37,573 nucleotides of DNA. It comes from a virus. The position numbers and the translations under genes were made by a program. Each line of letters begins with the position of its first letter. The stretch's first letter is position 1. The stretch spans positions 1 through 37,573 of IMG/VR virus record IMGVR_UViG_3300038422_000017; one strand, written 5' to 3'. Below the pieces are notes generated by a model. The model did no database searches. It was not told the DNA's origin and saw only the letters and a program-made list of their open reading frames with translations. Of the stretch, positions 5,459 to 31,144 are shown one piece after another.

Positions 5459-6889
5459 TCACTTTATCTCTCTTAGGAACTCCGCTATATCCGTAGCCTC
5501 TACTCCGCCCTCCATGGAGAGCTGCGCGTCCAGCTCGCGTTGGCGTCGTTCGAACTCCATTGTATTGCGTTTGTATATCGCCGCCTGATCACCTGTACCT
5601 TCCTCGCGGAGTGCCATCGGCCCTGGTTTCGGCTTAGGAACCGGTTTAGGTGGCTTGTAGTAACGTCCTAAATTCTTGACATAGGAGCCGATTGGGTAAT
5701 CGTGTTCTACTAGCCAGGTTTCTTTGCAAGCGTAAAAGTTGTGTAGCGAAATATTCACGACCTCAAATGGTGACACTTTATCGTCCTCGGCTAGCTGTAC
5801 TATTTGTAGGACGCCGTCTTGTCGGAGGTCATAGTCCGAATTTTTGGGACTATACGCGGTCAGTCCGGCGGCTTTGCGGTGTTCGTGGATTGCTTTGGCC
5901 AGCAGCGATGTGTCGAGCTCACGCCCAACTGGCGCCTCCAGGATTTCTTTTTTGAGTGGGGTAGCTAGGGTGGTAGCTGGGGTAGGGGGGATAGGGCAAC
6001 TGGGAGCAGCGTCGAGCGGTTTTGACGGCTTTGGTGGGTCTGGTGTCGTCTCCGGCAGGTTGTCTTGCTGAGCTTTCATCGCTCGCACGGAAGAAACCAT
6101 CAGCTTGGATACCGCTGGTCCGAGGTTTCCGTTCACCTTTTTCCGGTCTGATTCCGATGATTTAGACGCTCTTGCCGATTCCAACCGTCGTTGCGCCTCG
6201 AGGATTTTCTCGGGGATTGCGGTTGAGGTCTGCTCCGGTTCCGGGGTTTGTGAAATAAAATTCACAGCGCCACTCCGGGCGACGTCGGAGGAACCGCGCG
6301 GTGCTGTCTGCTCTGCAATCCGGAGTGGCGCTGTGATCTTAATTTCCTCTCCTTTCCTCTCCTCTCCTCTCCCGGCGACATTGGCGACAAGTGGCGACAT
6401 CGTGGCGACATTTTGCGACAAGTGGCGACAATCGTCGTCGTTTTGTCGGGCGACAAGTGGCGACAAAGTATCTGTTTTGCCTTTTTTCCGGGCCCTTTCA
6501 TCGCGTTTTTGTAGGCGTTTTTTCCACTTAGAACAATATTCAGACCAATCGTGAATTACGCACGACCCGTCTGCTCGCCTGTCGAGGAATCCTGATCTGC
6601 ATGCCGCTTCCGTAAAGCCAATTGACCCTGTCGCAACCTGTCGCTCGTTGTCGGCCGACATTGGCGACATTTGGCGACAGGGGATCTCTTCCATAGACCA
6701 ATCCGCCTCACTGTCTATTTCTTCATCCGTCATAGATGACAGGTCACCGTCTTCTGCGTGCCTTAGGGCGTATGTCCACAAGCAAATTAAATGACCCATG
6801 GCCACCGATTTTTTGATGCCCAAAAGCCTCATCAGCCGCTTGAGTTTTACGTGGTCATTTAGGGTATCGTGTAACTCGCAATATGGCAT
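5459..6889 (-). CDS. Replication initiator / replisome-organiser-like protein
   Basis: The 476-residue protein starts with a winged-helix-like domain (residues about 1-125: KLKRLMRLLGIKKSVAMGHL, LWTYALRHAEDGDL, then GFLDRRADGSCVIHDWSEY). This resembles the N-terminal DNA-binding domain of phage replisome organisers. A long low-complexity linker (about 130-320) follows, then a C-terminal helical domain (DLRQDGVLQIVQLAEDD to SYVKNLGRYYKPPKP) that may act like a DnaD-type helicase-loading segment. There is no ATPase motif and no helicase gene in the genome, so it would recruit host machinery. The linker codons contain phased GCGACA repeats, as in lambda O, whose gene contains the origin. The start overlaps the stop of a 41-codon leader ORF as TAATG, with AAAGG upstream. 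Confidence 0.75.
   Translation of the reverse strand: MPYCELHDTLNDHVKLKRLMRLLGIKKSVAMGHLICLWTYALRHAEDGDLSSMTDEEIDSEADWSMEEIPCRQMSPMSADNERQVATGSIGFTEAACRSGFLDRRADGSCVIHDWSEYCSKWKKRLQKRDERARKKGKTDTLSPLVARQNDDDCRHLSQNVATMSPLVANVAGRGEERKGEEIKITAPLRIAEQTAPRGSSDVARSGAVNFISQTPEPEQTSTAIPEKILEAQRRLESARASKSSESDRKKVNGNLGPAVSKLMVSSVRAMKAQQDNLPETTPDPPKPSKPLDAAPSCPIPPTPATTLATPLKKEILEAPVGRELDTSLLAKAIHEHRKAAGLTAYSPKNSDYDLRQDGVLQIVQLAEDDKVSPFEVVNISLHNFYACKETWLVEHDYPIGSYVKNLGRYYKPPKPVPKPKPGPMALREEGTGDQAAIYKRNTMEFERRQRELDAQLSMEGGVEATDIAEFLREIK
6262..6336. repeat. Perfect 17-bp inverted repeat within the initiator gene
   Basis: TCACAGCGCCACTCCGG at 6262-6278 is the exact reverse complement of 6320-6336, with a 41-base loop. 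The loop contains two smaller palindromes, CGACGTCG and ACCGCGCGGT. It could extrude as a cruciform or fold in mRNA. It lies in linker codons of the initiator beside the pyrimidine run and the iterons. Confidence 0.85.
6374..6465. repeat. Iteron array A (GGCGACA, about 10-base phasing)
   Basis: Eight near-identical 7-mers lie in 92 bases, in the same orientation, with start-to-start spacings of 9, 10, 11, 10, 10, 25 and 10. Within the 25-base gap TTGTCG faces CGACAA across two bases (6443-6456). The array encodes Ser/Val/Ala/Asn/Asp-rich linker residues, so protein constraint is weak and the repeat is probably maintained as DNA. Confidence 0.85.
6629..6679. repeat. Iteron array B (dyad of TGTCG / CGACA half-sites)
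   Basis: Half-sites TGTCGC at 6629 and 6639 and TGTCGG at 6649 are mirrored by CCGACA at 6655 and GCGACA at 6664 and 6674. The central 12 bases TGTCGGCCGACA are a perfect palindrome. The sequence elements are the same as array A but arranged head to head. Confidence 0.85.
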
Positions 6890-7014
6890 TACTTTTTACC
6901 TTTCAGACCGCAGAAACCTAGGCACTCGACTACCGCAGGGCCATCACTCCCAACGTGAGTGCCCAGATTTCTGCGTTCGAAATAACTATTGAAACGGTGA
7001 TGGTTCGTTTTCAT
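6889..7014 (-). CDS. Possible 41-residue leader ORF of the initiator gene
   Basis: Forty-one codons run from the ATG at 7014 to a TAA that shares bases with the initiator ATG (TAATG), a coupling style used repeatedly in this genome. CAAGG lies about nine bases before the ATG. The product is small and basic, ending VVECLGFCGLKGKK, and no family is recognised. Both arms of a 19-bp RNA stem lie within it, so ribosomes translating the leader would melt the structure just upstream of the initiator's ribosome-binding site. A leader or regulatory role is inferred, and a plain small gene is the alternative. Confidence 0.45.
   Translation of the reverse strand: MKTNHHRFNSYFERRNLGTHVGSDGPAVVECLGFCGLKGKK
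6909..6975 (-). promoter_or_regulatory. 19-bp RNA stem in front of the replication initiator
   Basis: In the - strand transcript, bases 6975-6957 pair with 6927-6909 over all 19 positions: 17 Watson-Crick pairs and two G-U pairs. On the opposite strand the G-U pairs would be A-C mismatches, so the structure favours the initiator mRNA. The 29-base loop holds GAGTG and GCCC, which could pair instead with GGGC and CACTC of the 5' arm, giving an alternative fold. The stem ends a few bases before the AAAGG of the initiator. Translational or antisense control of initiator level is inferred. Confidence 0.6.
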
Positions 7015-7976: not shown

Positions 7977-8483
7977 TTATCTATATTCCTTTCTCGCATA
8001 TACTCTTCCGATCGCTCCAAACCAACTGCAGAATGATAGGCGATAATCTCCATAGTAAATCAGTGCCGAACTGAATCGCGCGGTATCTTTCGCTCCTTCG
8101 AATTTCAGTCTCTTTCTGATCGCGCAAAACGGCACGGAATGCTCGCCTATGTCTGTATTGGCCACCTCCCACCATTCGGTGGACATATCAATGGGTACTA
8201 ACCCTATAGATTCCGTCTTGTTTTTCTCGTATTCGAAGCGAGCTTTTCGAACCCACTTGATCAGATTACCGCTTGAGTATGGAGGATTCCAGTACACGAT
8301 CCGTTTTTTGCTTCCTACTCGGACGTGCCATGATTTGGTTAATCCGTCCTGATCTTCTGTGTAGTTTTTTTGTGCAAACCAATCACGAGGATTCGGCGAC
8401 GCGCAAGGATCTATCGATATTACGCGCCACTGTTGGATATTATCTATCAACCAGCTTGGCGTTCGCCAGGTGTCGTTTGGCAT
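7977..8483 (-). CDS. Phage Dam-type DNA N6-adenine methyltransferase
   Basis: This 168-residue enzyme probably methylates adenine in duplex DNA, usually in GATC for this phage family. It has the family opening DTWRTPSWLID (4-14), the SAM-binding-side DPCAS motif (25-29) and the catalytic WNPPYSS (65-71). A C-terminal sheet includes RFSSALIYYGD. Its length is normal for the compact phage Dam family. AGGACAAAC lies before the ATG, and the first 37 bases overlap the preceding gene. Such enzymes can protect phage DNA from restriction or mark it for replication control. No partner nuclease is present. Confidence 0.9.
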   Translation of the reverse strand: MPNDTWRTPSWLIDNIQQWRVISIDPCASPNPRDWFAQKNYTEDQDGLTKSWHVRVGSKKRIVYWNPPYSSGNLIKWVRKARFEYEKNKTESIGLVPIDMSTEWWEVANTDIGEHSVPFCAIRKRLKFEGAKDTARFSSALIYYGDYRLSFCSWFGAIGRVYARKEYR

Positions 8484-20634: not shown

Positions 20635-22734
20635 TTATACCGGCTTAATGTCCGTGCTTCCTGTAGCTCCACCGAACAGAGTGCCTAGTGATTGAATCCA
20701 TCCGGCTTGTTTCTTCGTCGCGGCCGCGCGTTCGGTCTGGGTATATCCGGTAGTGATACCCATAGCCCTCGCTCTTAGTTCAGCGGCTGCCAACTCAGCG
20801 TCGCGATCTGATTCAGAGATAGCAGCTCTATTCATTATCGTCTGTACGGCTTTGTTCATCGCCTCATTGTATGCCCCGGTTTGCTGCCCGGCATTGAACT
20901 TGTTTATGTCGGTCCCAAGTGTGGCCGTAAGGGCATTCGTGTTGTAAACGGCGTCAGCATATGCCTTGTTCGCGTTTAGTTGATTTATCGCGTTTTGCGT
21001 GGCGACTTGCCGCGCTTGATCGGAGAGGTTGATCCCAATACCGGCCGCGTTCGTCGCAGCGTTCGAACTTCCGATCATCATGTTGCCTGCGGCCGTGTTC
21101 GCGAGCGACGCTCCAGTCATCATGTTCCCGGCATTCACGTACGCGTTCCCGGCATTGGTATACATGTTACCCTGACTAGTTGCCGCGTTCGCGCCAGCCA
21201 CTAGCAGGCCGCCTGCGTTCGTCGCAGCGTTCGCCGCACCGGTGTACATGTTTCCGACGTTAGCGCTAGCGTTCGCCGCACCAGTATACATATTGCCAAT
21301 ACCGACCGCGACTTGACCGGAGTTGTTGTACATGTTTCCGATATTAGTAGCCGCGTTCGCAGCGTTCGTGTACATGTTACCGATCCCAACTGCCACTTGG
21401 CCGCCAGTGTTGTACACCTGGCCTAGATTGGCCGCCACCTGGCCAGCGTTGGTTAGCAATCCGCCAGCATTGACGTTGCCCTGCGCTTGCGCGATGTCAC
21501 CGGCTCGCAGTTGTTGCGACGCGGCGTTGTATTCACCACGCGCTACTGCCATCTCTTGAGCGCGAAGGGCCGCTTGTTGGACCGCTACATCTTGGGCCAA
21601 TTCCGCGTTTTGTCCGATCGCCGCATTCCGCGCGATCATTTCCGCGCCGATTCCGCCGCGAGCGCTAGCCGCCGTAGCCAATGCGTTTTTCTGCGCGGTC
21701 TGGAGACCGGCTTTCATTAGCATTTCGGCAGCAGACGGCGCATTACCTTCGGCGGCCGCTTGCGATAGGCTTAGCGCGTGCTCCTGCGCATATCTCGCTT
21801 CGCTGGCGAGATCCAGAGCTTCATTAGCCCGGTCATATGAATTCTGTACTTGCGCCAGGTAATCCATACCTACGCCAGCCGCGCGGTTCGCTTGATCTAT
21901 CTGTGCGTATGCCTGCGCTGCGGCCGGGTCTACCTGCGCTAATTCTTGGTATGCATATTGAGCTGCCTGATTCGCCTGCGCAATAGCTTGGTACGCCGCG
22001 TCGCCCGCCGTGCTCACCTGACCTAGGAATTGATTCGCTTGCTGCCCTTGGACATTCACGTTAGAAAGGAAGTCCATCGACGTGTTGTAAGCGCCTGGCA
22101 CGGCGTTGAGAAAGTTTGTCCCCATCTGGCCAGACTGATTTACATTACTAATCATATTGTTTGCCAGATTATACGAGTTCGGCACTGACTGTAGATATCC
22201 GACTGAGTTCTTGTACGTGTCAGGTATCCCGCTAAGTGCACCCATGGCCGTGTTATAAGCAGACGTCGCCATGTTCGTTCCGGTCGCCATCCCAGACGTG
22301 TCAATGACGGGAGGAGTGTATAGCGTCTTGTCGACGCTTGGCATAGCCGTCGCTTGAGCGGTAAACGTCGGATAGGCTCCATTAAGCATCCTGTCCGTGA
22401 TCCCTTGCATTTGATAATACGGATCACTGCTCATGGCCGCCGCATCCGCCGTTCCTGCTTTCATCGCCCAGTCAATGATGAACTCGTCTGGCGACACCCC
22501 ATTGAGCATCGCATTGTACAGATCTTGAGTAGTCGGTGGCGGAGTAAATCCCTTAAACGCATCTCCCCTCTTTGTGGCTTCTTCAAGATTAAGGGCATCG
22601 ACATACCTTTGGTAGTTGTCTATCGGATCGGTTTCCTCGGTTACACCCTTGGACGTTATACCGCTGATGATTCCTAGTGGGTCACCGATTGTCTTCTTTA
22701 TTGGGTTTAGAATGTTCTCTAAAAAACTTGCCAT
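20635..22734 (-). CDS. Repeat-containing ejection or tail-hub protein (699 residues)
   Basis: I chose the ATG at 22734 with GAGGATAAC upstream. The protein is Ala/Asn/Gln-rich. Residues about 420-570 hold tandem units of the type GNMYTGAANAATN (about 11-13 residues, mostly A-N-x-G-N-M-Y), and an earlier stretch has AQANQAAQYAYQELAQVD-type repeats. Such repeats suggest a long helical or beta-solenoid rod. It follows the nozzle-like protein and precedes the two other large internal proteins, so it is probably ejected with DNA or lines the tail channel. The family is not certain. Confidence 0.65.
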   Translation of the reverse strand: MASFLENILNPIKKTIGDPLGIISGITSKGVTEETDPIDNYQRYVDALNLEEATKRGDAFKGFTPPPTTQDLYNAMLNGVSPDEFIIDWAMKAGTADAAAMSSDPYYQMQGITDRMLNGAYPTFTAQATAMPSVDKTLYTPPVIDTSGMATGTNMATSAYNTAMGALSGIPDTYKNSVGYLQSVPNSYNLANNMISNVNQSGQMGTNFLNAVPGAYNTSMDFLSNVNVQGQQANQFLGQVSTAGDAAYQAIAQANQAAQYAYQELAQVDPAAAQAYAQIDQANRAAGVGMDYLAQVQNSYDRANEALDLASEARYAQEHALSLSQAAAEGNAPSAAEMLMKAGLQTAQKNALATAASARGGIGAEMIARNAAIGQNAELAQDVAVQQAALRAQEMAVARGEYNAASQQLRAGDIAQAQGNVNAGGLLTNAGQVAANLGQVYNTGGQVAVGIGNMYTNAANAATNIGNMYNNSGQVAVGIGNMYTGAANASANVGNMYTGAANAATNAGGLLVAGANAATSQGNMYTNAGNAYVNAGNMMTGASLANTAAGNMMIGSSNAATNAAGIGINLSDQARQVATQNAINQLNANKAYADAVYNTNALTATLGTDINKFNAGQQTGAYNEAMNKAVQTIMNRAAISESDRDAELAAAELRARAMGITTGYTQTERAAATKKQAGWIQSLGTLFGGATGSTDIKPV
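21030..21480 (-). repeat. Tandem repeats encoding Asn/Ala-rich units of the ejection protein
   Basis: Units with GTACATGTTNCC and GCGTTCGC on the + strand recur about every 33-40 bases and encode GNMYTNAANA-like units. They are diverged at third positions, so they are not a recent expansion. Confidence 0.7.
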
Positions 22735-27057: not shown

Positions 27058-27395
27058 GTTTTGATTTCTTCTACTAATACCCTAAGACGATATTTCGTAA
27101 ACTGCGTATAATCCTCGGAGTTCGCCCACGCGTAGACATCGCCGTCGATGGGCGAAATAACTAATGTTTGCCCTATGTCTCGCTTTATCCCATGTAAAGA
27201 TATAATTGCAACCTCGGTGAACTCCGTGGTTAGATTCGCCGATATATGCGCGCTTTCTGTCGGCTGACCTAATACAATAGAGGCCGTAATGCGGTACATA
27301 TGATTTTTGTCCGCCGTGAACAAAAACGTAGGAACGGTCTCGCCTTCTTTATCTACTATATCTATTCCAGCTATTACCTCTACGGCAGTACCCAT
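27054..27395 (-). CDS. Hypothetical 113-residue fibre-associated protein
   Basis: The ATG at 27395 overlaps the fibre stop as TAATG, with AAAGGA upstream, and is preferred over an in-frame start inside the fibre gene. The sequence is beta-rich (MGTAVEVIAGIDIVDKEGET, FLFTADKNHMYRITASIVLG, TEVAIISLHGIKRD, ISPIDGDVYAWA). This looks like a small jelly-roll or Ig-like domain. Position after the fibre and coupled translation suggest a fibre chaperone, tip or connector. No family is assigned. Confidence 0.6.
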   Translation of the reverse strand: MGTAVEVIAGIDIVDKEGETVPTFLFTADKNHMYRITASIVLGQPTESAHISANLTTEFTEVAIISLHGIKRDIGQTLVISPIDGDVYAWANSEDYTQFTKYRLRVLVEEIKT

Positions 27396-30300
27396 TATGA
27401 TATCCTTTGTATTTTCAGATACGAGTTTGGTTTCACGTATGCGGTTTGGCTTGACTGCAAACATTTGCACTGAATCATAAACTGCGGCGATCCGGTAGAA
27501 GGGGCGATGAATATCCCTTTCATAAACATTTCGCCTAATCCAGCCGCCATATTGTTTTGATGTCCCTGTAATCCCAACGTAGTAATAAGCCAGTGATTAA
27601 CTGGAGCGCTAGTCGCCCCTTGAGCCCCTTGACTTCCGCGTGCTATCCCGGCAACCGATCCACCAGCGACATTGCATTGAGGACACCACTGTATTCCTTG
27701 CGATCCGGCCGTTTTTTGCGATCCAATTACGGCTTCCCATTCGTACGTGGCGTTATTGGTCAGAACTGAAGTCGTAAAGCCTGGCACGTTTTGCAATCCA
27801 CTTGCCTGCGTTAGAGACCATTGTGCGCCTTGAATCCTGTATTCTGGCGCGTATCCGCCTCCGCTAGCGCCTTGATACCCCTGATTACCTTGAGCACCTT
27901 GTTCGCCAGCTACGCTGATCGTCCAGCTAGCATATGTGCCGCTACCGCCAGTGCGGACTACGTTGACCGTCATCTGGTCAGTGGTCCAGCCGGTGATGTT
28001 CCCCTCCATCCAGTTGGTGGCGCTATTTATTATCCTTACCAGACTGCCAGTGACATACGCTACATTAGATACAGTATCAGATACCGTCATGGTTAAAGAA
28101 CCAGTCGCTATGGTCCTAGACGATACAGACGTAACATAGTATTTTTTCGCTGCTGGTCCGGGAGTGCCAGACACGTTTATATTCCATGCATTGTAAGTGC
28201 CGGTTCCGCCCCATTCGTCGATATATATTACTAGGCTCGTTCCAGAATATGAGCTGACTATACCTCCCATGAACGTGTAGTTGTCACCCTGAACGGTCGC
28301 CTTCGCGCGAGCGCCAGCTAAATATGCGAGCCCGGCCTGTACCGTAAATGTCTTTTCAACGTAACCTTCTACCAACAGTGATGAGCTAGACGTGGCAATA
28401 TATCCAGCGCCCGCTGTTCCTTGATATCCTTGGTAACCCTGCGCGCCGTTGTTTCCGGCATTTCCCTGATACCCTTGGTAACCCTGTGGCCCAGCCCCTC
28501 CCGCTGTTCCTTGATATCCCTGATTCCCTTGTGGCCCAGTGCCGCCAGCATTTCCTTGATAACCTTGCGGGCCAGCGCCACCGACGTCTCCCTGATTCCC
28601 TTGTGGCCCAGTACCGCCAGCGCTACCTTGATATCCTTGGTACCCCTGAGGTCCGGCTCCTCCGGTATTGCCCTGCGCTCCCTGAGAACCGGCATCACCA
28701 GCAACTCCTTGTGTCCCCTGATATCCCTGATATCCCTGATAGCCCTGATAGCCCCTTAGCCCTTGGTACCCTTGTGGTCCAGGATCTCCGCTATCTCCTA
28801 TGCTTCCTTGGTACCCTTGCGGGCCTTGACTTCCGGTATTCCCTTGACTTCCGGTATTTCCTTGCGGTCCAGTGTCACCGATAAACCCTTGAGGTCCTTG
28901 TGCTCCTTGTACTCCTTGTGGTCCTTGTATTCCGCCGCCGCCAGTAATAATCGCGGAAAGACCGCCACGGGGGGCATTGACAAATTGAGCGTTGCTAAAG
29001 TCAGTGGCGCCTTGCTGAATTATCAACCATCCACGGAAAATGCCCCAACTCAGATTTGGGTCTTCGACAAACCCGTCGGTATAATGCAGCAACGCGTCTT
29101 CTTTCGAATCGTATTCTACCTGTCCATAGGCGACGTATGTAAAAGAAAAGTCCGGTATAAGGTATATATACTGAACAGTCCATTTACCGGACCCTACATT
29201 AGTAATCCCTGTTAGGGTGTCGTAATTATTGGGGTCGATGTACAGAGTATATGAACTGTCTGTCCAATCTCCGGATCCATTGGTAAGCGCGTATTTGAAA
29301 TAGTAGTTCGCGCCGCTTGCCGCGATGATCGGCATATGCGGATTGACTTTTCCATCGGATCCATGAAAATTGATCCCTTTGCCCCAAACACGTCCGATGG
29401 ATTTGGCCAAGCGTAGCCCGCTTGAGCCAGCCGAGTAGATGTTGCCATAATCATTTTGTCTACCTAACCAAGTCCAAAACTGAGTCAGTTGAGTAGCAAG
29501 CTGCCCTTCGGAGGTCGGATAGTTCGAAACGGCATTGATGGTTGTTCGGTTCGAGTGGACCGTATTCCCGATATGGGCATATATGGCGTATTCGTCCGGC
29601 GTCCAAAAGTCCGGACCAGATCGTTGCGCGACCGTAGGTGGGTCGCTGTCTGTTAGCGCGATGAACGTAAGCGAAGAATTCGCTATCTCAGTATCGGTGA
29701 TCCCGATCATGTCCGAGAACTCGCGAATAGTTACAACGGGCGGATCGTCTGGATTCGTAAAGTTGTCGACGAACATGATCTTGTTCGTAGGATCGCTTCC
29801 GCTGTAGATATCAAACTTGGTATTGTCTCCTCCGTTTATTCGAACCTTGCACCCGCATATGATGGACGTCGCCTCCGACCACGTGGAACCTCCGCCTCCT
29901 TGTTCCCCCTGCGGCCCTTGTTCTCCTTGTTCTCCTTGTGGCCCTCCATAAGCACCTTGATAGCCTTGGTAACCTTGCGGTCCCTGAGACCCACTACCTG
30001 TCTGGCCCTGTAACCCCTGCGGCCCTTGGTATCCTTGCGGCCCTTGCTCTCCATCGATTCCCTGGTATCCATCGGCACCGGCGGGGCCTTGGTAGCCCTG
30101 GTTGCCTTGTGGCCCCTGTCCGCCTTGTGCGCCTTGTTCCCCGGCTCCCTGGATTCCCTGATACCCTTGTGGACCTTGCAAACCGGTGTCCCCGGTGTCG
30201 CCCTTCGAGCCAGTCGCGCCTTGTGGCCCTTGGTACCCTTGATATCCCTGGCTTCCGGTGTCGCCCTTGTCGCCTTCATCTCCTACATGTCCCTGTAGAC

Positions 30301-31144
30301 CCTGGGGTCCCTGCACTCCCTGAGTGCCCTGTGGTCCCTGTAGCCCGGTGCCGGTGACTCCCTGATTGCCTTGTGGCCCTTGGGCACCCTGGTATCCCTG
30401 ATTCCCCTGTGAGCCGGTGAGTCCGGTTCCACCTTGGAACCCTTGGAATCCCTGGTAACCCTGGTTGCCCTGGTTGCCCTGGTTGCCCTGCGTGCCTGCG
30501 CCGCCCACATTACCCTGGTTGCCCTGGTAACCCTGGTTGCCCTGGTTGCCCTGGTTGCCCTGCGTGCCTGCGCCGCCAGCCGTCCCTTGAAAACCTTGCG
30601 TACCCTGGGTTCCTTGAAAACCTTGCGTTCCCTGGTACCCCTGCGTTCCCACCTGTCCGGTGAGCCCGAGATTCCAGTCGGTCTTAGTTCCTGAACCGGA
30701 CGTGTAATCCATATTGACGACTAGCGTCGTTGACGAATAGGAGGTTACCAATCCCTCCATGAAATTCGTGGTGCCGCTCGCGCTTGTGGCCCGCACTCTC
30801 ATTCCAACGAGATAGGCCAGTCCGGCTTGCGTGGTAAAACTCTTACTACCCGTTCCGATAGTGAGCGAAGTGGTCGACGTCGCCGCATATCCGGCACCTT
30901 GCGAGCCTGCTCCCTGGACTCCCTGCGCTCCTTGCGCTCCTTGCGTTCCCTGAGTCCCTTGATATCCTTGCGGACCTCCAGAGCTGCCTTGCGGCCCTTG
31001 CGCCCCTTGAAAGCCTTGCGGCCCTTGTAAGTTTCCACCCATGGCGATTTCACCGTTCCTAATAGCGTTATACAAGTCCTCGAATTTTTTTTCTATCTCT
31101 TCGAGGTTGCGCGCCGGAGGCCTTTTGTGGATATCGAAAAACAT
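27395..31144 (-). CDS. Collagen-like tail fibre (1249 residues, GXQ repeats)
   Basis: The start overlaps the adaptor stop as TAATG. A 35-residue helical N terminus (RPPARNLEEIEKKFEDLYNAI) probably trimerises and binds the tail. Collagen-like tracts of Gly-X-Y follow, with Gln the dominant Y residue (GPQ, GYQ, GAQ, GNQ, GTQ). They lie at about 30896-31033, 29884-30668, 28405-28938 and a short one near 27860-27906. Three related domains of about 80 residues containing TTQAGLAYLVGMRVRATSAS-type sequence (the third more diverged) separate tracts, plus a larger globular domain (about residues 420-735). The C-terminal region (about 1095-1249) may be receptor-binding. Each tract should form a triple helix. 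Confidence 0.88.
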   Translation of the reverse strand: MFFDIHKRPPARNLEEIEKKFEDLYNAIRNGEIAMGGNLQGPQGFQGAQGPQGSSGGPQGYQGTQGTQGAQGAQGVQGAGSQGAGYAATSTTSLTIGTGSKSFTTQAGLAYLVGMRVRATSASGTTNFMEGLVTSYSSTTLVVNMDYTSGSGTKTDWNLGLTGQVGTQGYQGTQGFQGTQGTQGFQGTAGGAGTQGNQGNQGNQGYQGNQGNVGGAGTQGNQGNQGNQGYQGFQGFQGGTGLTGSQGNQGYQGAQGPQGNQGVTGTGLQGPQGTQGVQGPQGLQGHVGDEGDKGDTGSQGYQGYQGPQGATGSKGDTGDTGLQGPQGYQGIQGAGEQGAQGGQGPQGNQGYQGPAGADGYQGIDGEQGPQGYQGPQGLQGQTGSGSQGPQGYQGYQGAYGGPQGEQGEQGPQGEQGGGGSTWSEATSIICGCKVRINGGDNTKFDIYSGSDPTNKIMFVDNFTNPDDPPVVTIREFSDMIGITDTEIANSSLTFIALTDSDPPTVAQRSGPDFWTPDEYAIYAHIGNTVHSNRTTINAVSNYPTSEGQLATQLTQFWTWLGRQNDYGNIYSAGSSGLRLAKSIGRVWGKGINFHGSDGKVNPHMPIIAASGANYYFKYALTNGSGDWTDSSYTLYIDPNNYDTLTGITNVGSGKWTVQYIYLIPDFSFTYVAYGQVEYDSKEDALLHYTDGFVEDPNLSWGIFRGWLIIQQGATDFSNAQFVNAPRGGLSAIITGGGGIQGPQGVQGAQGPQGFIGDTGPQGNTGSQGNTGSQGPQGYQGSIGDSGDPGPQGYQGLRGYQGYQGYQGYQGTQGVAGDAGSQGAQGNTGGAGPQGYQGYQGSAGGTGPQGNQGDVGGAGPQGYQGNAGGTGPQGNQGYQGTAGGAGPQGYQGYQGNAGNNGAQGYQGYQGTAGAGYIATSSSSLLVEGYVEKTFTVQAGLAYLAGARAKATVQGDNYTFMGGIVSSYSGTSLVIYIDEWGGTGTYNAWNINVSGTPGPAAKKYYVTSVSSRTIATGSLTMTVSDTVSNVAYVTGSLVRIINSATNWMEGNITGWTTDQMTVNVVRTGGSGTYASWTISVAGEQGAQGNQGYQGASGGGYAPEYRIQGAQWSLTQASGLQNVPGFTTSVLTNNATYEWEAVIGSQKTAGSQGIQWCPQCNVAGGSVAGIARGSQGAQGATSAPVNHWLITTLGLQGHQNNMAAGLGEMFMKGIFIAPSTGSPQFMIQCKCLQSSQTAYVKPNSYLKIQRIS
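28405..28938 (-). repeat. Collagen-like GXQ repeat tract, distal
   Basis: This is a 9-base periodic repeat encoding Gly-X-Y triplets with mostly Gln at Y. Interspersed GDTGP and GDSGDPGP triplets break the pattern. The DNA repeat is imperfect, with mixed Gly, Pro and Gln codons. Confidence 0.85.
29884..30668 (-). repeat. Collagen-like GXQ repeat tract, central (longest)
   Basis: About 780 bases of 9-base units encode roughly 260 residues of Gly-X-Y. A nearly identical block of about 60 bases occurs twice around 30447-30575 (GNQGNQGNQGYQ units separated by VGGAGTQ), a recent local duplication. Confidence 0.85.
30896..31033 (-). repeat. Collagen-like GXQ repeat tract, proximal
   Basis: A short tract of about 15 Gly-X-Gln triplets lies just after the N-terminal helix and before the first 80-residue domain. 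Confidence 0.8.

Follow-up and report, generated by a model that had tools for sequence, protein, structure and literature searches.

A replication origin placed inside the gene of its own initiator is an established arrangement, although to our knowledge few phages and plasmids have been studied in detail in this respect. The origin of lambda and of Stx phages lies in gene O (PMC7466680), oriL of SPP1 lies in gene 38 (PMC6316719), and the origin of pSK41 lies centrally in rep, where the linker encoded by the origin is dispensable (PMC5703833). Here, we analysed a 37,573-bp window (the whole stretch of DNA under study) of the virus record IMGVR_UViG_3300038422_000017, and found a locus that is very probably a phage replication origin of the theta type, lying within the gene that encodes its initiator.

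The proteins recognised in the window included a large terminase, a portal or head-tail adaptor, a collagen-like tail fibre, a RecE-like exonuclease and a Dam methylase, together with a match to a T7-like internal virion protein. The ORFs at 75-434 and 2047-2397, on either side of the terminase gene, match identical PHROG families (5154, 11782 and 18865), which suggests a gene duplication. The collagen-like tail-fibre gene (27395-31144) is large and contains many tandem repeats of 9, 18 and 36-45 bp, and an 84-bp tandem repeat (21243-21416, 2.1 copies) lies within a 704-aa ORF without a PHROG match. GATC occurs 263 times in the window against about 144 expected from base composition, and the Dam-like methylase of the phage is encoded at 7977-8483. 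An Rfam scan gave no match. The gene at 5459-6889 (minus strand) encodes a protein of 476 aa whose N-terminus (aa 5-65) matched phrog_9474, a replication initiation protein family, with an E value of 2.2e-20. In tblastn searches, the protein also matched a 'primosome' protein of Paenibacillus phage Harrison and the initiator of Faecalibacterium phage FP_Lagaffe, and it aligned with 17 homologues across the whole N-terminal domain. These results establish that the gene encodes a replication initiator. AlphaFold modelling with a 24-sequence alignment predicted a winged-helix fold with confidence as far as about aa 139 and disorder over aa 142-221, and the protein is thus predicted to consist of a wHTH DNA-binding domain (aa ~2-139), a disordered linker (aa ~142-221) and a C-terminal part.

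Twelve exact copies of GCGACA or its complement TGTCGC were found at 6375-6679, compared with 36 in the whole window, and they are divided between array A, with eight copies (6375-6465, plus strand; TGTCGC in the direction of the gene), and array B, with four (6629-6679). The fourteen half-sites counted in the original prediction are these 12 plus the two halves of a palindrome, TGTCGGCCGACA, at 6649-6660. Among 5000 synonymous-codon shuffles of the gene, the mean number of sites was 2.9 and the maximum was 11, and steps of 9-11 bp, of which the gene has seven, never numbered more than three; the sites are therefore in excess of codon expectation. Because of the 10-bp pitch, the sites occupy all three reading frames and the encoded peptides differ between sites, which argues for constraint or selection on the DNA. 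The clustering was also borne out across the contig, where the density of 12 sites in 305 bp was matched by only one 6-mer, in the collagen-like tail-fibre gene. Array A had been described as direct repeats with 9-11-base steps; this holds for most of its steps (in order, 9, 10, 11, 10, 10, 25 and 10 bp), but one 25-bp gap interrupts the series. The array also comprises two higher-order units of about 31 bp (6374-6435) and an inverted relaxed half-site, TGTCGG, at 6444, and it holds a head-to-head element, TGTCGGGCGACA (TGTCG-N2-CGACA, 6444-6455), which had been missed earlier. The window has three copies of this head-to-head unit together with an adjacent site, all of them inside the two arrays. 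The codons of array A specify aa 142-172, directly after the wHTH domain, in a segment with a pLDDT below 50. Both arrays had been assigned to low-complexity linker codons, which is correct for array A, but array B lies within the predicted helix-turn-helix domain.

Two further elements, neither of them in the original prediction, adjoin array A. In the direction of the gene, array A is followed immediately by a homopurine tract of 31 nt (coding strand, 6343-6373) and then by an inverted repeat (6252-6346). A run-length scan showed that no other purine or pyrimidine run in the contig is as long as this tract (the next is 20 nt), and a run of this length was reached by 8 of 1000 synonymous shuffles. 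The inverted repeat has 27-nt arms (6252-6278 and 6320-6346; 89%) with a perfect core of 17 nt and a 41-nt loop; a repeat scan ranked it as the strongest in the contig and the sole perfect one of at least 11 nt (loop ≤ 60). Both elements strengthen the interpretation as an origin, and the homopurine tract is a candidate unwinding or strand-asymmetric element. No lambda-style AT-rich element was found beside array A (6325-6375, AT 0.46, z -0.08). The least stable of the 50-bp stretches sampled over 6200-6925 lies between the two arrays, at 6500-6550 (AT 0.64, z -1.2), and is a possible melting site. Cumulative GC-skew, proposed earlier as a check, was uninformative as an origin marker: it was dominated by gene strand and had no switch, and the third-position skew of the coding strands likewise had no switch at the locus.

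We compared these features with the described systems. As in gene O of lambda and Stx phages, the iterons lie mid-gene, between the DNA-binding and C-terminal parts and beside a special tract, and additional iterons add residues to the protein (PMC7466680). However, the lambda iterons are about 19 bp long, each an imperfect inverted repeat, and lie by an AT-rich tract, whereas those of the window are hexamer cores at steps of about 10 bp, and the tract beside them is purine-only and not AT-rich. Lambda also has no second dyad array in the codons of its DNA-binding domain, where the window has array B. Membership of the initiator in the lambda O family (Phage_rep_O) was rejected: no Pfam family was found at E 0.01, and the PHROG matches are to other initiator families. 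Given the missing O-family match, the different site size and the lack of an AT-rich tract, we regard the locus as similar in its working to lambda O, SPP1 gene 38 and pSK41 rep, and not as a member of the lambda O family. The locus resembles SPP1 in having direct repeats within the gene of the origin-binding protein itself (PMC6316719), but no counterpart of the AT-rich unwinding element, of the second origin (oriR) or of the loader gp39 of SPP1 was identified in the window, and a search of neighbouring genes revealed no helicase loader. The likeness to RepA_N initiators of the pSK41 type consists of a wHTH N-terminal domain, an origin placed centrally in rep, a linker encoded by the origin and a separate C-terminal domain (PMC5703833). 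The RepA_N structures 4pt7, 4pql and 5kbj were among the best structural matches (Z 4.2-5.0) but were tied with unrelated winged helices: 4pt7_B matched the full initiator model (Z 5.0, 83 aligned residues, rmsd 3.0), and 4pql_B matched the domain alone (Z 4.6) at the level of MarR and IclR domains. The structure search of the initiator returned generic winged-helix matches only. In addition, no RepA_N match was found in Pfam (E 0.01) and no plasmid match by tblastn, and site size and layout differ between the window and pSK41-type RepA_N systems. Finally, the protein shares with the phrog_9474 initiators both its N-terminal match and linker repeats that follow the wHTH domain, but a 21-aa insertion carrying array B is present in the window protein alone.

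Relatives of the N-terminal domain of the initiator are encoded by 29 viral loci. In a set of 21 non-redundant homologues, in the choice of which the motif played no part, linker repeats exceeded those of synonymous shuffles (Fisher 3.6e-10), and they still did so when microsatellite-type cases were left out (Fisher 2.6e-6); the value was 2e-13 with three array-selected loci counted in, and these were removed for the 3.6e-10. Homologous initiators carry linker repeats in the same position, mostly with other motifs: GCGCAC (L129 and L131), ACGCGG (L112), CACGTG (L126) and CGTGAC (L106), while L097/L132 has three copies of TGTCGC in its linker. In L111, L124 and L126, purine-only runs also follow the repeats, above synonymous expectation. 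Across the homologues, a T-poor strand asymmetry was not significant and inverted repeats were weakly significant, and an automatic scorer recovered the strict order of iterons, T-poor tract and inverted repeat in only 1 of 24; we therefore restrict the claim of a three-part, lambda-like layout to the window.

In a second, independent comparison, viral contigs were scanned for TGTCGC at 10-bp steps. In another initiator family (L079/L260, L099/L262, L263 and L033; L263 was included by homology and L033 was judged from its sequence), the linker holds five to nine TGTCGC-type sites at 10-bp steps, again in the same position. Matches to phrog_270, phrog_9474 and phrog_16167 were obtained for L079 and L099, and profile comparison detected no homology between the DNA-binding domains of the window family and the L079-type family. 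The arrays of the window and of L079, L099, L263 and L033 have in common 10-bp steps with a terminal 9-bp step; with only two lineages, sharing this terminal step does not reach significance. Initiator genes make up a minority of the 96 viral stretches that have such an array, and a TGTCGC 10-bp array is therefore not diagnostic alone. Three of these arrays (L009:12592-12617, L053:5128-5153 and L066:937-962) have a tRNA gene (Tyr or Gly) at a distance of 55-75 bp and might be integrase arm-type or attachment-site repeats. A TGTCGC scan of bacterial genomes returned mostly dispersed or GC-rich repeats with no relation to initiators. L143, L148, L155, L158 and other SHZD01 contigs, from a Myxococcales MAG (Baikal-deep-G136), contain dispersed repeats with TGTCGC arrays that are apparently a separate, unrelated repeat family.

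Array B (6626-6682) was delimited by site search, alignment and AlphaFold modelling. It is a dyad with a perfect central palindrome, as originally described, and reads TGTCGC-N4-TGTCGC-N4-TGTCGGCCGACA-N3-GCGACA-N4-GCGACA, with 19-nt arms that are 84% complementary. It coincides with a 63-bp (21-aa) in-frame insertion (~6623-6685, ~aa 69-89) that is missing from all 17 aligned homologues and that falls between helices 55-61 and 92-99, in the turn of the predicted HTH, where model confidence is 55-62. Two patterns of the dyad searched in viral contigs gave no match, and searches with P0001, terminase and portal found no close relatives with array B. Array B is the unusual feature of the locus, without a counterpart in any relative examined.

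The proposal of an origin in the initiator gene, made originally with lambda O as precedent, is backed by the identity of the gene, by codon-independent repeats in three frames, by the same linker position in homologues and by the adjoining homopurine tract and inverted repeat, and we conclude that array A is the core of this origin. Low-complexity coding drift through slippage in a disordered linker might also produce a tandem array such as array A. However, the cores are exact in three frames while the spacers vary, indels between repeat units are limited to spacers, the sites exceed synonymous shuffles and repeats recur at the same place in homologues, and drift as the only cause is very unlikely. 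A partition, packaging or integrase arm-type site is slightly less credible still; the tRNA-adjoining arrays of some other viral contigs speak for it, but the window proteins searched included no recognisable integrase or partition protein, a tRNA scan of the window gave no match, and the arrays lie inside the initiator gene, with the large terminase gene about 4.3 kb away.

For array B, the alternatives carry more weight. It may be a passive duplication of array-A units, a tolerated insertion in the HTH turn without a function of its own. In line with this, a 24-nt segment of array B is identical to the end of array A at 22 positions, array A itself was expanded by duplication of a unit of about 31 bp, and array B occurs in no homologue; yet the dyad of array B is precise on both sides and contains a perfect 12-bp palindrome, its four sites were reached by only 1 of 2000 synonymous shuffles, and an insertion in the HTH turn should cost the protein. 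We consider a passive duplication rather improbable on balance. Operators are often dyads, and array B (perhaps with part of array A), a dyad near the 5' end of the gene and about 235 bp inside it, could be an autoregulatory operator or a transcription roadblock at which bound initiator limits its own expression. No sigma-70-like promoter was found on the coding strand beside array B or at the start of the gene, and a purely regulatory role leaves array A and the repeats of the homologues unexplained, which makes these two regulatory versions jointly unlikely. Our tentative preference is that array B functions as a second site of initiator assembly, mirrored in orientation and lying in the codons of the initiator's own HTH, and we place a second facing assembly there at somewhat below an even chance. 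Two facing initiator assemblies, or handcuffing, are both possible forms of such a role.

Based on these features, we propose how the origin may work. The N-terminal winged-helix domain of the initiator would bind the TGTCGC sites, and the spacing of about 10 bp in array A would align consecutive sites along the same face of the helix, allowing initiator molecules to line up next to one another in an ordered complex. This complex could strain the DNA that flanks it, with the homopurine tract and inverted repeat lying to one side and the AT-richer segment that separates the arrays lying to the other, and the strained DNA would open. The C-terminal part of the initiator may then recruit a helicase or a loader. 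The disordered linker would be mostly a by-product of encoding the sites, and array B may have arisen from array-A units that were inserted among the codons of the DNA-binding domain, and may serve as a secondary site of assembly.

If array B does act in this way, it would face array A across the AT-richer segment, and two assemblies might load helicases for divergent forks; assemblies at the two arrays could also be bridged, limiting re-initiation. The initiator would then have taken 21 residues into its HTH turn to make room for a DNA element. Codon-independent linker repeats in divergent initiator genes offer a sequence-only route for proposing origins in uncultured phages, and these candidate-origin motifs vary among clades. 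Few cis DNA elements would be expected to lie, as array B would, in an insertion within the codons of a folded DNA-binding domain, and array B bears directly on whether origin architecture can reshape the initiator protein.
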